Source of the DNA: Flavobacteriaceae bacterium
GTDB lineage: Bacteria; Bacteroidota; Bacteroidia; Flavobacteriales; Flavobacteriaceae
Direction of reading: 5' to 3'
Length of the DNA: 64,000 bases
Assembly: GCA_029238125.1 (NCBI GenBank)
Contig: JAQWGQ010000007.1
Location: 1-64,000 of the forward strand
The notes under the pieces were generated by a model, which searched no databases, had not been told where the DNA came from, and saw nothing but the letters and a program-made list of their open reading frames with translations. Of the stretch, positions 23,759-27,842 are shown piece by piece (position 1 is the first letter of the stretch; each line of letters starts with the position of its first letter). A program made the translations under genes and the position numbers.

Positions 23759-24733
23759 ATGCGAACCTTGCTGCTCCTCCTTGTTTTCAGTATCACAACT
23801 TTTATTTCTGCCCAAACCATCGCTTTTGGCTCTTGCCACAAGGTCAATGACCCCAACAGTGATATCATTCTAACGAGCATTTCCGATCAAAACCCCGATG
23901 CTTTTATTTGGCTTGGTGATATCGTTTATGGAAAAGATGGAAACCCCAAACACCTGAGCAAAAAATTTGACCAACTCAAATCCAAATCCAGCTATCAGAA
24001 CCTCTTGCAGTCAACCACCGTTTATGGTACTTGGGACGACCATGATTATGGTCTAAACAACGCTGGACGTGATTACCAACACAAAGATCGCAGTCGAGCC
24101 GATTTGTTTGCCTTTTTAAATGTCCCCAAAGACAGTCCTGCCTATGAGCGGAATGGCGCCTACCAGTCCTATGACCTCAGCCCAAAAATCAAACTCATCC
24201 TACTCGATAACCGATACTTCAAATCAGAATATAGACCCAAACCCTACAATGACCCTTATCTCCCGGATTACGAAGGAACCATCCTCGGAGAGCAGCAATG
24301 GGACTGGTTGGAAAACCTCCTTAAAAGCTCAACCGCCGATGTCCATATTATCGCTTCGGGCATACAAGTCTTATCCCCAAATCATCGCTTTGAAAAATGG
24401 CAGAACTATCCCAAAGAATACAAGCGTTTGATCGGTTTGCTGCAAACCCATACCGTCAAAAACCCTATCGTGCTTTCTGGTGATCGTCATATGTCGGAAC
24501 TCTCCCAAAAAGATATTGGTTACACCGTCCTATACGACGCTACTTCTAGTGGAATGACGGAAGCACTCACCAATAACCTGAACGAAGAAAACCCCTATCG
24601 GGTCGGAAAAAGCATTGGTGTGAATAGTTATGGTGTTCTAAACATTGATTGGGAAAAACGCAATATCAATTTTTCATTTCTAGATATCCACGGCAAATCA
24701 CTTTTTGACTATAACGTCCCTCTAGATAACTAG
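23759..24733 (+). CDS. PhoD-like alkaline phosphatase D family protein
   Basis: Signal peptide; IAFGSCHKVNDPNSDIILTSISDQNPDAFIWLGDIVYG, TVYGTWDDHDYGLNNAG, VLSGDRHMSEL. Confidence 0.9.
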   Translation: MRTLLLLLVFSITTFISAQTIAFGSCHKVNDPNSDIILTSISDQNPDAFIWLGDIVYGKDGNPKHLSKKFDQLKSKSSYQNLLQSTTVYGTWDDHDYGLNNAGRDYQHKDRSRADLFAFLNVPKDSPAYERNGAYQSYDLSPKIKLILLDNRYFKSEYRPKPYNDPYLPDYEGTILGEQQWDWLENLLKSSTADVHIIASGIQVLSPNHRFEKWQNYPKEYKRLIGLLQTHTVKNPIVLSGDRHMSELSQKDIGYTVLYDATSSGMTEALTNNLNEENPYRVGKSIGVNSYGVLNIDWEKRNINFSFLDIHGKSLFDYNVPLDN

Positions 24734-25368
24734 TCCAGCCAAATCACTTGACCTGAATCAAGCTGATAAACACCTCCAACAACAGCAATTTTTTCTGCGT
24801 CGTTAAGCTCTTTTAATATGCTGCTCTTCTCCAAGATACGCGCCATGGTCATACGCACATTTTCAGCAATCGCAGCATTGACAAAGTCACTGTCTTTGCT
24901 CGTGGGAGTTTTGTTTGTCTCCCCTTCTACTTTGCTTACCGCCGGTGCGATAGAGGACAACAAGCCCGTTATGTGACCGAGTTCGACACCATCGCATGCT
25001 GCCTTCACTGCTCCACAACCGGCGTGTCCTAAAACAACAACAAGTTTGCTCCCAGCAACCGCACAAGCATATTCCATACTCCCCAAGATGTCATCGTTTT
25101 CAAAATTCCCTGCAACACGTGCAACAAAAATATCGCCTATGTGTTGGTCAAAAAGCATTTCAACAGGCACACGTGAATCAATACACGACAGTACAACCGC
25201 CTGAGGGTGTTGACCATCAATGGTGTCACTTCGAAGAGACGAAGCATCTACCTGATCAGGAGTGCCACTGACATAGCGCATATTGCCCGCTTGCAATTGT
25301 TCAAAAACATCTTCTGGACTTCGTGCTTGTTGTTCTGTGGCCGTGAGGGCTGTGTTACGATTATTCAT
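24730..25368 (-). CDS. Beta-class carbonic anhydrase
   Basis: AVVLSCIDSRVPVEMLFDQHIGDIFVARVAGN, VVVLGHAGCGAVKAA. Confidence 0.95.
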   Translation of the reverse strand: MNNRNTALTATEQQARSPEDVFEQLQAGNMRYVSGTPDQVDASSLRSDTIDGQHPQAVVLSCIDSRVPVEMLFDQHIGDIFVARVAGNFENDDILGSMEYACAVAGSKLVVVLGHAGCGAVKAACDGVELGHITGLLSSIAPAVSKVEGETNKTPTSKDSDFVNAAIAENVRMTMARILEKSSILKELNDAEKIAVVGGVYQLDSGQVIWLD

Positions 25369-25507
25369 TGTGTTGGATTTACAGCCAAATAATAAATAAA
25401 TTGAAAAAAAAATAAGACGTATTTCATGTTTGAAAGATTTAAGGAGACTTCACAAAGTAACAAATTTTTATATCAAGTTCAAATCTCTTTTTTTTTTGGG
25501 TTTTCAT

Positions 25508-25541
25508 AAAACTTTTTACAACTTTAAGGGTCTAAATCATA
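25508..25541 (+). promoter_or_regulatory. Putative ECF sigma autoregulated promoter AAAACTTT-N13-GGTCTAAATcATA
   Basis: Identical bipartite motif with identical N13 spacing at 26401-26434. Confidence 0.6.
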
Positions 25542-25551
25542 AACTGTTGCG

Positions 25552-26091
25552 CTGAAAGATGTAGAACAACATATCACCGATTGCCTTCGGAAAAACGACA
25601 TCCACGCTGGGTTACGGCTGATTGTGGATCACTTCCACGAACCACTCTACTGGGCCATTAGAAAATGGGTGTTGGTACATGAAGACACTGATGACGTGCT
25701 CCAACTTACCTATGTGCGAATCTATAAAGGGCTTGGTAAATTTGCTTTTAAAAGTTCGATTAAGACCTGGTGCTATCGCATCGCCTACAACGAAGCCATG
25801 CGCTTTTTGAAGTCCAACAAAAAACGAGTTCGAATCTCAGAAGAAGTCATGACATATCGATTGGAAAGTCTGTATGCTGACCCCTATTTTGACGCCGATG
25901 CAACCGATGCGTCCTTACGACAGATTATCGCTCAACTCGATGACAATCAACGAGAAGTGTTTTGTATGAAATATTATGACGAACTCAAGTTTTCCGAAAT
26001 CGCCCAAATCACCAATCGAAATGAAAATTCGGTCAAAACCCTATTTTATAAAGCAAAAGAAATTCTGTCAAATCAAATTGTTCTATCATGA
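25552..26091 (+). CDS. RNA polymerase sigma-70 (ECF-type) factor
   Basis: Frame open upstream of the listed GTG (25624): LKDVEQHITDCLRKNDIHAGLRLIVDHFHEPLYWAIRKWVLVHEDTDDVLQLTYVRIYKGLGKF...LDDNQREVFCMKYYDELKFSEIAQITNRNENSVKTLFYKAKEIL. Start is probably CTG 25552 or GTG 25624; no ATG. Confidence 0.9.
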   Translation: MKDVEQHITDCLRKNDIHAGLRLIVDHFHEPLYWAIRKWVLVHEDTDDVLQLTYVRIYKGLGKFAFKSSIKTWCYRIAYNEAMRFLKSNKKRVRISEEVMTYRLESLYADPYFDADATDASLRQIIAQLDDNQREVFCMKYYDELKFSEIAQITNRNENSVKTLFYKAKEILSNQIVLS

Positions 26092-26402
26092 GTCGAAAAA
26101 CAAATTCACATCAAAAACTGGGCTTTACCGTACCTGAAAACTATTTTACAACCTCCAAAGCGAAAATCCTCGACGCAATCCAAAACGAGAAAAGAACCCC
26201 AACTCCTGTGTTGCGCATCAAACCCTGGGTGCTACAACTGGCTGCCATCTTTGTTATCGCATTGGCAACCACTTGGTTTTTGCGCCAAAGCAATGACGAA
26301 CTCAATAATTTTGACACCTTGCTCCTCGACTCACTCGTCATTGAAGATGATGATTTTGCAGATTGGTACGAAGTAAATTACGTGTTAAATGACATCGACT
26401 AA
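26088..26402 (+). CDS. Small single-TM protein, putative anti-sigma factor
   Basis: ATGA overlap with the sigma gene; one TM segment (WVLQLAAIFVIALATTWFL); 104 aa. Confidence 0.65.
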   Translation: MSRKTNSHQKLGFTVPENYFTTSKAKILDAIQNEKRTPTPVLRIKPWVLQLAAIFVIALATTWFLRQSNDELNNFDTLLLDSLVIEDDDFADWYEVNYVLNDID

Positions 26403-26434
26403 AACTTTCTGACCAAACAACGGTCTAAATGATA
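26401..26434 (+). promoter_or_regulatory. Second copy of the putative ECF promoter AAAACTTT-N13-GGTCTAAATgATA
   Basis: Matches 25508-25541 in both half-motifs and in spacing; 20 nt before the ATG at 26455. Confidence 0.6.
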
Positions 26435-26454
26435 GATACAAAACTTAAAATATT

Positions 26455-26940
26455 ATGAAATCCTTACAATCCCTATTCCTCATCATCGCATTTGTATTTA
26501 GTGGTATGACCTCCGCACAAGATGTCGATGATACCCAACAAGCACAAAGAAACAGCAATAAAGGCATGGAAAAAATCCTCACGCCTGACCAGCTTGCCTT
26601 ATTGGAAGAACAAAACGACTTGGTCAAAAGTCAACGCGAGGCCTTTAAAAACACCTTATCAGATGACCAACTGGCGATTCTCGACAACCAAGACCTCAAT
26701 CGAAAGGAAAGACGAGAAGCCCTTCGCACTACCTTTACCCAAGCCCAACTCGATCTCTTGGACACCCATAAAACCAACGTCCAAGCTCTTAAAGATTCTT
26801 TCCGCGAGTCACTGACCGATGAGCAAAAGCAAAACCTCAAAAAACGCAGACAACGACTAAAAGAGAAAAAGCAGCAGCCCAATCAAAAAAAGCGGCAAAT
26901 CAAAAAGAGAATGAAGAAAAGAAAAAACGCTAATAATTAA
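26455..26940 (+). CDS. Secreted Spy/CpxP/CnrX-like helical sensor protein
   Basis: Signal peptide MKSLQSLFLIIAFVFSGMTSAQ then 'LTPDQLALLEEQ...LSDDQLAILDNQ..DLNRKERREALRTTFTQAQLDLL...LTDEQKQNLKKRRQRLKEK'. Confidence 0.7.
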   Translation: MKSLQSLFLIIAFVFSGMTSAQDVDDTQQAQRNSNKGMEKILTPDQLALLEEQNDLVKSQREAFKNTLSDDQLAILDNQDLNRKERREALRTTFTQAQLDLLDTHKTNVQALKDSFRESLTDEQKQNLKKRRQRLKEKKQQPNQKKRQIKKRMKKRKNANN

Positions 26941-27000: not shown

Positions 27001-27842
27001 ATGCGTCATTTTTCTTTTTTTGTTCTGCTGGTCTTCGCTATCTCTTGCACAAAATCTAGAATCTGAAGAACCTTCAGACATCGACGAACTCCTCGACGAA
27101 CTTTTTGTTGTCGACACCCTTGCTGTCCTACAGGCCTATGACGACCTCAAAGGCGGATTTCTATACGCCTCCATCAGCTTTGACGAACAGGCCTATTTTT
27201 CTGGACGGGACTTTGACATTGACCAATTTGGACTCGCTCCGAGTTTGACCTATCTCAGCAGTGGTGGTACCTATCTATTTGCCGGTGGATCCTATTACAG
27301 TGAGCTCGACCCCCACATGGGATTTGTTTGCCCTTGGTGTAGGGCAATTTTGGTCCCTTGGAAAAGAAAAACGATGGTCAGTCAGCGCGAGCTATGCCTA
27401 CTCTTTCCTCGGCGAAGACAGTGAGGGGCTCAACACCCATCGGCTGTCATCGAGTGTGAGTTATAAGCTCGACCCCCTACAACTCCATGTCGCAGGGGGC
27501 TATCTCTTTGGTGACGAACCAAGCTACTACCTCTCCACCTCGATCAACTATGAAACGACCATCGCGCAAATCGGTGCTTTCGAACTCACTTTTGAACCCA
27601 ATCTGTATCTGATGTTTAGCCAGCAAAACATCATCGAACAAGTGTCCTTATTTCGATTTGCGGAGTCAACCGTATTTGATCGGGTCAATAGCCAACTCGA
27701 ACTGCCACTCACCCTCGACAACAATACCTTGGATGTCACCCTGAGCTATACCCGCAACTTCCCCAACAATCTTTTTGAAGATGAAGACCTCTCCTCTTCT
27801 GGCTATGTTTCCATCAGCTTGGGCTGGCTGATTCCCCTCTAA
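27001..27842 (+). pseudogene. Outer-membrane beta-barrel (transporter-like) protein, reading frame broken by two apparent +1 homopolymer events
   Basis: Frame A (27020..) ...GGTYLFAGGSYYSELDP continues in frame B as TWDLFALGVGQFWSLGKEKRWSVSASYAYSFLGED... at C5 27310-27314. The ATG at 27001 is also out of frame with QNLESEEPSD unless the T7 near 27014-27020 is T6. Confidence 0.7.

Follow-up and report, generated by a model that had tools for sequence, protein, structure and literature searches.

We describe here a regulatory cassette of a marine flavobacterium with a small genome which, with rather high confidence, we read as an autoregulated ECF sigma/anti-sigma unit of the envelope response, in which the gene of an LTxxQ-repeat protein bears a promoter of its own and a YHYH lipoprotein gene elsewhere in the genome is a further target. 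Switches of this type are already known in Bacteroidota, and the cassette represents a distinct variant of them. It is set apart by the copied promoter in front of the third gene, by the four-repeat protein and by the YHYH target. The stretch that was analysed (64,000 nucleotides, called the window throughout) is part of a 1.47-Mb, 82%-complete assembly. Sites, gene layout and conservation were read from the sequence, and the following features were located:

25508 to 25541, plus strand: P1, the predicted ECF-type promoter of the sigma/anti-sigma operon, found by pattern match, orthologue conservation and matrix; it reads AAAACTTT-N13-GGTCTAAAT-N-ATA, with the core AAACTTT-N14-GTCTAA at 25509-25535
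25552 to 26091, plus strand: ECF sigma factor with regions 2 and 4, probable CTG start at 25552
26088 to 26402, plus strand: putative anti-sigma factor, 104 residues, single transmembrane (TM) segment
26401 to 26434, plus strand: P2, the predicted ECF-type promoter before the LTxxQ-repeat gene
26455 to 26940, plus strand: secreted LTxxQ-repeat protein, 161 residues
26961 to 26994, plus strand: intrinsic-terminator-like hairpin with a T run, which ends the unit
On another contig of the same genome (L051:1501-2515, corresponding to contig C11, 11784-12799): third promoter site with the YHYH lipoprotein gene

The sigma and anti-sigma genes share four bases (ATGA); at the other end of the anti-sigma gene its stop codon and the -35 element of P2 overlap. 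Both the 104-residue and the 161-residue open reading frames had been called correctly; the sigma frame is longer than the 155-residue GTG frame of the mechanical call.

The original prediction had placed two copies of AAAACTTT-N13-GGTCTAAATnATA, separated by an identical 13-base spacer, at 25508-25541 and 26401-26434, and this is exactly where they lie. In the window the full motif matches twice, compared with no match in 100 dinucleotide shuffles. When the whole genome was searched, the full pattern occurred at these two places only, whether no mismatch or up to three were allowed, and a reversed control pattern gave no match anywhere in the assembly; all genome-wide site counts reported here rest on such pattern searches. 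Its core AAACTTT-N14-GTCTAA has exactly three copies in the genome, the third of which lies on another contig and is also placed like a promoter. The absence of the motif before orthologous cassettes would have counted against a promoter, and in our analysis we found it at both places in orthologues of the same genus; in one of these the second copy has GTCTAT as its -10 element, and the most distant one shows CAACTTT/CAACTAT. Outside the genus AAAC[TC]TTT-N14-GTCTAA precedes the sigma orthologues in 17 of 20 loci with at most 3 of 13 mismatches, and in 14 of 20 with at most two, a level reached by about 2% of shuffled upstream regions. Every one of these sigma-upstream sites has a spacer of 14, although 13-15 was allowed in the search. 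A weight matrix trained on 16 sigma-upstream sites of other genera, none of them from the genus of the window, recovered P1 in each of the eight genus loci tested and a P2-type site in nine of nine (shuffle p 0.001-0.004). Across Flavobacteriaceae the sigma gene is preceded by this -35/-10 pair at unchanged spacing, which makes it very probable that the motif pair is the promoter of the sigma factor itself. Sites, conservation and matrix together support the earlier suggestion of an autoregulated ECF promoter that was copied before the third gene, its activity being predicted, and the AAC / GTC-type elements, as judged by site and conservation, are consistent with membership of the ECF class. 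For one orthologous group of sigma factors the specificity for promoters can here be read directly from conservation alone, and over many genera.

Two neighbouring genes were considered as members of the regulon and rejected. A weaker matrix match of 13.4 bits was noted on the minus strand at 25413-25439, some 45 bases ahead of the carbonic anhydrase gene, which is divergent (24730-25368, minus strand); L019 and L020, both close relatives, lack the GTC of this site. Before the downstream gene of outer-membrane type (from 27001) the matrix found no match in any genus locus. The latter gene is split into frames in this assembly (27001-27842), is intact (about 289 residues) in relatives, L072 and L076 among them, and lies 3' of the LTxxQ gene in another genus as well (L091). 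Its broken frames may be an assembly error or real damage.

That the first two genes encode an ECF sigma factor and a small single-TM anti-sigma factor, as had been proposed, is borne out by Pfam regions 2 and 4 and by the TM architecture, respectively. Over 182 residues the sigma factor matches Sigma70_r2 (3.9e-8) and Sigma70_r4_2 (1.3e-12), and TIGR02937 (sigma70-ECF) scores 78 bits against a cut-off of 42.9. Sigma-70 regions 2 and 4 with little else place the protein in the ECF group (group IV). The conserved frame opens directly behind an in-frame TAA (25540-25542) and closes with the TGA at 26089-26091. From the -10 element to codon 24 the seven orthologues of the same genus contain no in-frame ATG, GTG or TTG, save one TTG in L021 that lies immediately next to the -10 element, where it would precede the transcription start. 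Where translation should begin, at 25552 in the window, a CTG is kept in all seven; the other conserved leucines of the sigma factor use the same codon in all seven orthologues at only two of 12 positions. In the same set the third base of each of codons 0 to 6 is invariant. On the basis of this CTG conservation, the codon invariance and the lack of ATG, GTG or TTG in the conserved frame, translation likely starts at CTG 25552, on what would be a near-leaderless mRNA. We rejected the GTG at 25624, which is the mechanical call, as the start, since two of the seven orthologues have GTA there and the coding sequence upstream of it is conserved. A more distant member of the genus (G009) has TTG at nearly the same position as the CTG of the window, and TTG or GTG starts are frequent in the wider family. 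We also noted an out-of-frame ATGTAG, a start followed by a stop, at 25559-25564; it is present in all seven orthologues, though synonymous changes could break the motif.

The 104-residue protein is a candidate anti-sigma factor of the adjacent sigma factor, a prediction drawn from the gene overlap and the single-TM architecture. Its cytosolic part contains an FTVPENYF segment, the TM segment spans about residues 48-64, and the periplasmic tail has 40 residues with a net charge of -11. The structure model of this protein is weak (pTM 0.25).

Trios of an ECF sigma factor, a single-TM anti-sigma factor and a secreted helical protein are common in Flavobacteriaceae. The typical trio (L026, L028, L031-L046) shares with the window the homologous sigma and anti-sigma factors, the gene order and the promoter of the sigma gene. 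It differs in its FxVPExYF anti-sigma factor, which is longer than that of the window and often has two VPExYF segments, and in its third protein (KIKALKIAFITE..., of the type KIKALKIAFITERLDLS..EAQ.FWP.YN), whose gene usually adjoins or overlaps the anti-sigma gene, with no gap and no internal promoter. By matrix, an internal promoter site was found in one of 18 typical cassettes, compared with 14 of 14 LTxxQ-type cassettes of other genera that have a homologous sigma factor (shuffle p 0.001-0.025). It was found in none of five LTxxQ loci beside an unrelated sigma factor, and the same five also have no site upstream of the sigma gene. In these loci (L081, L085, L105-L107) the LTxxQ protein adjoins a divergent sigma clade that lacks this promoter at either place, which is an independent pairing of LTxxQ protein and sigma factor. 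In the sigma tree the LTxxQ-type sigmas with an internal promoter form one clade (support 97/83) that is nested among the typical ones; the clade comprises 19 sampled rows, and its long inner branches are placed with less certainty. Most simply this would be read as a single exchange of the third gene, accompanied by the gain of its own promoter copy. The comparison of typical and LTxxQ-type cassettes offers a testable reason for the third gene's own promoter. In one set of lineages the two promoter copies differ systematically: the LTxxQ-upstream promoters of L086, L092, L093, L096, L097, L098 and L100 read GTTCTAA, and their sigma promoters mostly GGTCTAA.

The third protein itself has LTxxQ motifs at residues 42, 68, 94 and 120, in an exact 26-residue phase, and a basic C-terminal half. 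Among 18 homologues the only invariant residues are the four motif glutamines, spaced by exactly 26, and a glutamine near the end of the signal peptide. Of 400 genomes sampled from the family, 34 encode the protein; elsewhere in the class it was found in few families. The original prediction had called the protein Spy-like, and in part this stands: LTxxQ motifs, secretion and an all-helical model (core pLDDT about 90) are shared with Spy/CpxP (PF07813). The likeness holds at the level of motifs only. Pfam LTXXQ (PF07813) gives no match for the window protein, which stays below the cut-off, and weak matches in nine of the 18 relatives (best 8e-4); four motifs in strict 26-residue phase and a basic tail set the window protein apart from Spy/CpxP. 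Foldseek against the PDB gave no match at E <= 0.001, none to a solved structure of Spy, CpxP, CnrX or ZraP included, in a type of search that often misses elongated helical proteins. Profile and single-sequence searches of PDB sequences returned nothing relevant, and we found no literature on LTXXQ tandem repeats or on a 'sensor of ECF-type sigma'. Most likely the protein would serve the envelope as a chaperone, independent of ATP, or as a scaffold; no fold match points to a chaperone.

As to its place in the circuit, the LTxxQ protein looks at least as much a response output as a sensor, since its gene has its own promoter and relatives lie away from the sigma gene. It might even be output only, a chaperone or structural protein of the envelope, with the anti-sigma factor sensing alone or through proteolysis; we would put the chance of this only a little short of even. 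An output role is favoured by the promoter and the terminator-like hairpin that delimit the gene, by the typical cassettes, where the anti-sigma factor is of the same kind and the third protein looks unrelated, and by a similar promoter being kept by LTxxQ genes without a sigma gene just upstream. Such genes were noted in L099, L101 and L103, which have neither a homologous sigma gene nor a homologous anti-sigma gene just upstream and yet an AAACCTT...TCATA/GTCTAA-type promoter, and likewise in L162-L164, where the similar promoter is seen by matrix score only. However, the third gene stays beside the anti-sigma gene across many genera, with the typical third protein in the same place, and the anti-sigma tail and the repeat protein are oppositely charged. 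In LTxxQ-type pairs the tail carries -8 to -22, compared with +3 to +19 in the C-terminal half of the LTxxQ protein; this charge pairing is not specific, since acidic anti-sigma tails occur in typical cassettes too.

The most likely mechanism would be the following. As long as the cell is not stressed, the single-TM anti-sigma factor would hold the sigma factor at the membrane by its short cytosolic part, until an envelope signal frees it. The freed sigma factor would then transcribe its own operon, would drive a separate and strongly expressed mRNA for the periplasmic protein with four LTxxQ motifs, and would transcribe the YHYH lipoprotein gene. In a possible further step the basic half of the LTxxQ protein would bind the acidic anti-sigma tail and so reset the switch once clients no longer occupy the protein. 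Binding, signal and chaperone role are what we infer here. That the protein does feed back on the anti-sigma factor we regard as possible, with somewhat more doubt than belief. A bolder and rather doubtful extension would be that a clade of Flavobacteriaceae swapped the usual third protein for a new four-fold, 26-residue LTxxQ family with a private sigma promoter, that the LTxxQ protein is both main product and feedback sensor, with its ratio to the anti-sigma factor setting the switch, and that sigma synthesis in the window's genus is additionally throttled by the conserved CTG start on a near-leaderless mRNA.

The third exact copy of the core lies 43 bases before the ATG of a gene for a lipoprotein of 323 residues with a YHYH domain (PF14240, 1.4e-63). 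This promoter is present in all eight genus genomes that hold the gene, with diverged flanks and with -35 variants that read AAACTTT, AAACTAT or GAACT. A second YHYH-type gene in genome G012 also has the promoter, and three more distant YHYH homologues have no such promoter upstream. In G000, G010 and G012 every exact site belongs to a sigma, LTxxQ or YHYH gene. We therefore propose a candidate regulon of three promoters, predicted from the sites, that would serve the sigma operon, the LTxxQ gene and the YHYH lipoprotein gene. The cassette was not found in G003, G004, G006 and G007, which are 65-78% complete, though the YHYH promoter is present there; from these four genomes it follows that another sigma factor could serve the YHYH promoter. 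It is thus conceivable, if unlikely, that a different ECF sigma factor of the same specificity acts at this gene and that the regulon of the cassette is the cassette itself only. The incompleteness of the four genomes weakens this argument, as do the sites in G000, G010 and G012, which all belong to the same three kinds of gene. The other ECF sigmas of these genomes, moreover, match the query weakly (E 1e-9 to 1e-5), and the ones examined in detail belong to other types. In the preferred three-promoter regulon the YHYH lipoprotein, whose family is named by its sequence motif only, gains a possible regulatory context of envelope stress in the window's genus.

Two further explanations fare considerably worse. 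The motif copies could be sites of another factor or a functionless repeat instead of promoters of this sigma factor, which we consider very unlikely: across genera the spacer length is fixed and the spacer sequence has diverged, the AAC/GTC-type layout is that of ECF promoters, the distance to the gene starts is short and regular, and the presence of the motif tracks the type of the linked sigma factor. It is hardly credible that the third protein binds metal and signals through the small anti-sigma factor to the ECF sigma factor, as in CnrYXH of Cupriavidus metallidurans and as the original prediction had thought plausible: the two systems share the gene types (ECF sigma factor, small single-TM anti-sigma factor with a short cytosolic part, periplasmic helical partner), but CnrX signalling needs the conserved Met123 ligand (PMC7689651), and here the 18 homologues share no His, Cys or Met position except the start Met, the window protein has after its signal peptide no Cys, one His and two Met, there is neither a sequence nor a fold match to CnrX, and in the 82%-complete assembly no efflux pump follows any of the three exact sites.

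ECF sigma/anti-sigma/helical-protein trios are common in Bacteroidota and barely studied, and the closest studied case that we found was published in 2026. At the promoter level a flavobacterial parallel exists in SM6 of Flavobacterium psychrophilum, whose ECF promoters have a conserved CGT box in the -10 element and which is carried by one sigma/anti-sigma operon (PMC9723704). An ECF-type -10 element is common to both, without the sigma factors being equated; SM6 differs in that it serves type IX secretion genes. The closest case is CirYZ-Spy of Phocaeicola vulgatus, in which an ECF sigma factor, an anti-sigma factor and a co-transcribed spy gene are strongly induced in colitis, and where cirY, spy and two genes downstream of them are induced once cirZ is deleted (PMC13114119). 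The likeness, which is drawn from gene types and gene order, consists in the order sigma factor, anti-sigma factor, Spy-type protein, the third protein of the window being Spy-type at the level of motifs only. In P. vulgatus spy is co-transcribed with cirYZ and is followed by two cell-wall genes, whereas the third gene of the window has its own promoter copy, encodes four LTxxQ repeats and is joined by an outside target, the YHYH lipoprotein. Co-transcription of the third gene from the sigma promoter only would set CirYZ-Spy apart from the window, in which the predicted promoter P2 stands directly before the third gene and read-through from P1 is possible as well.
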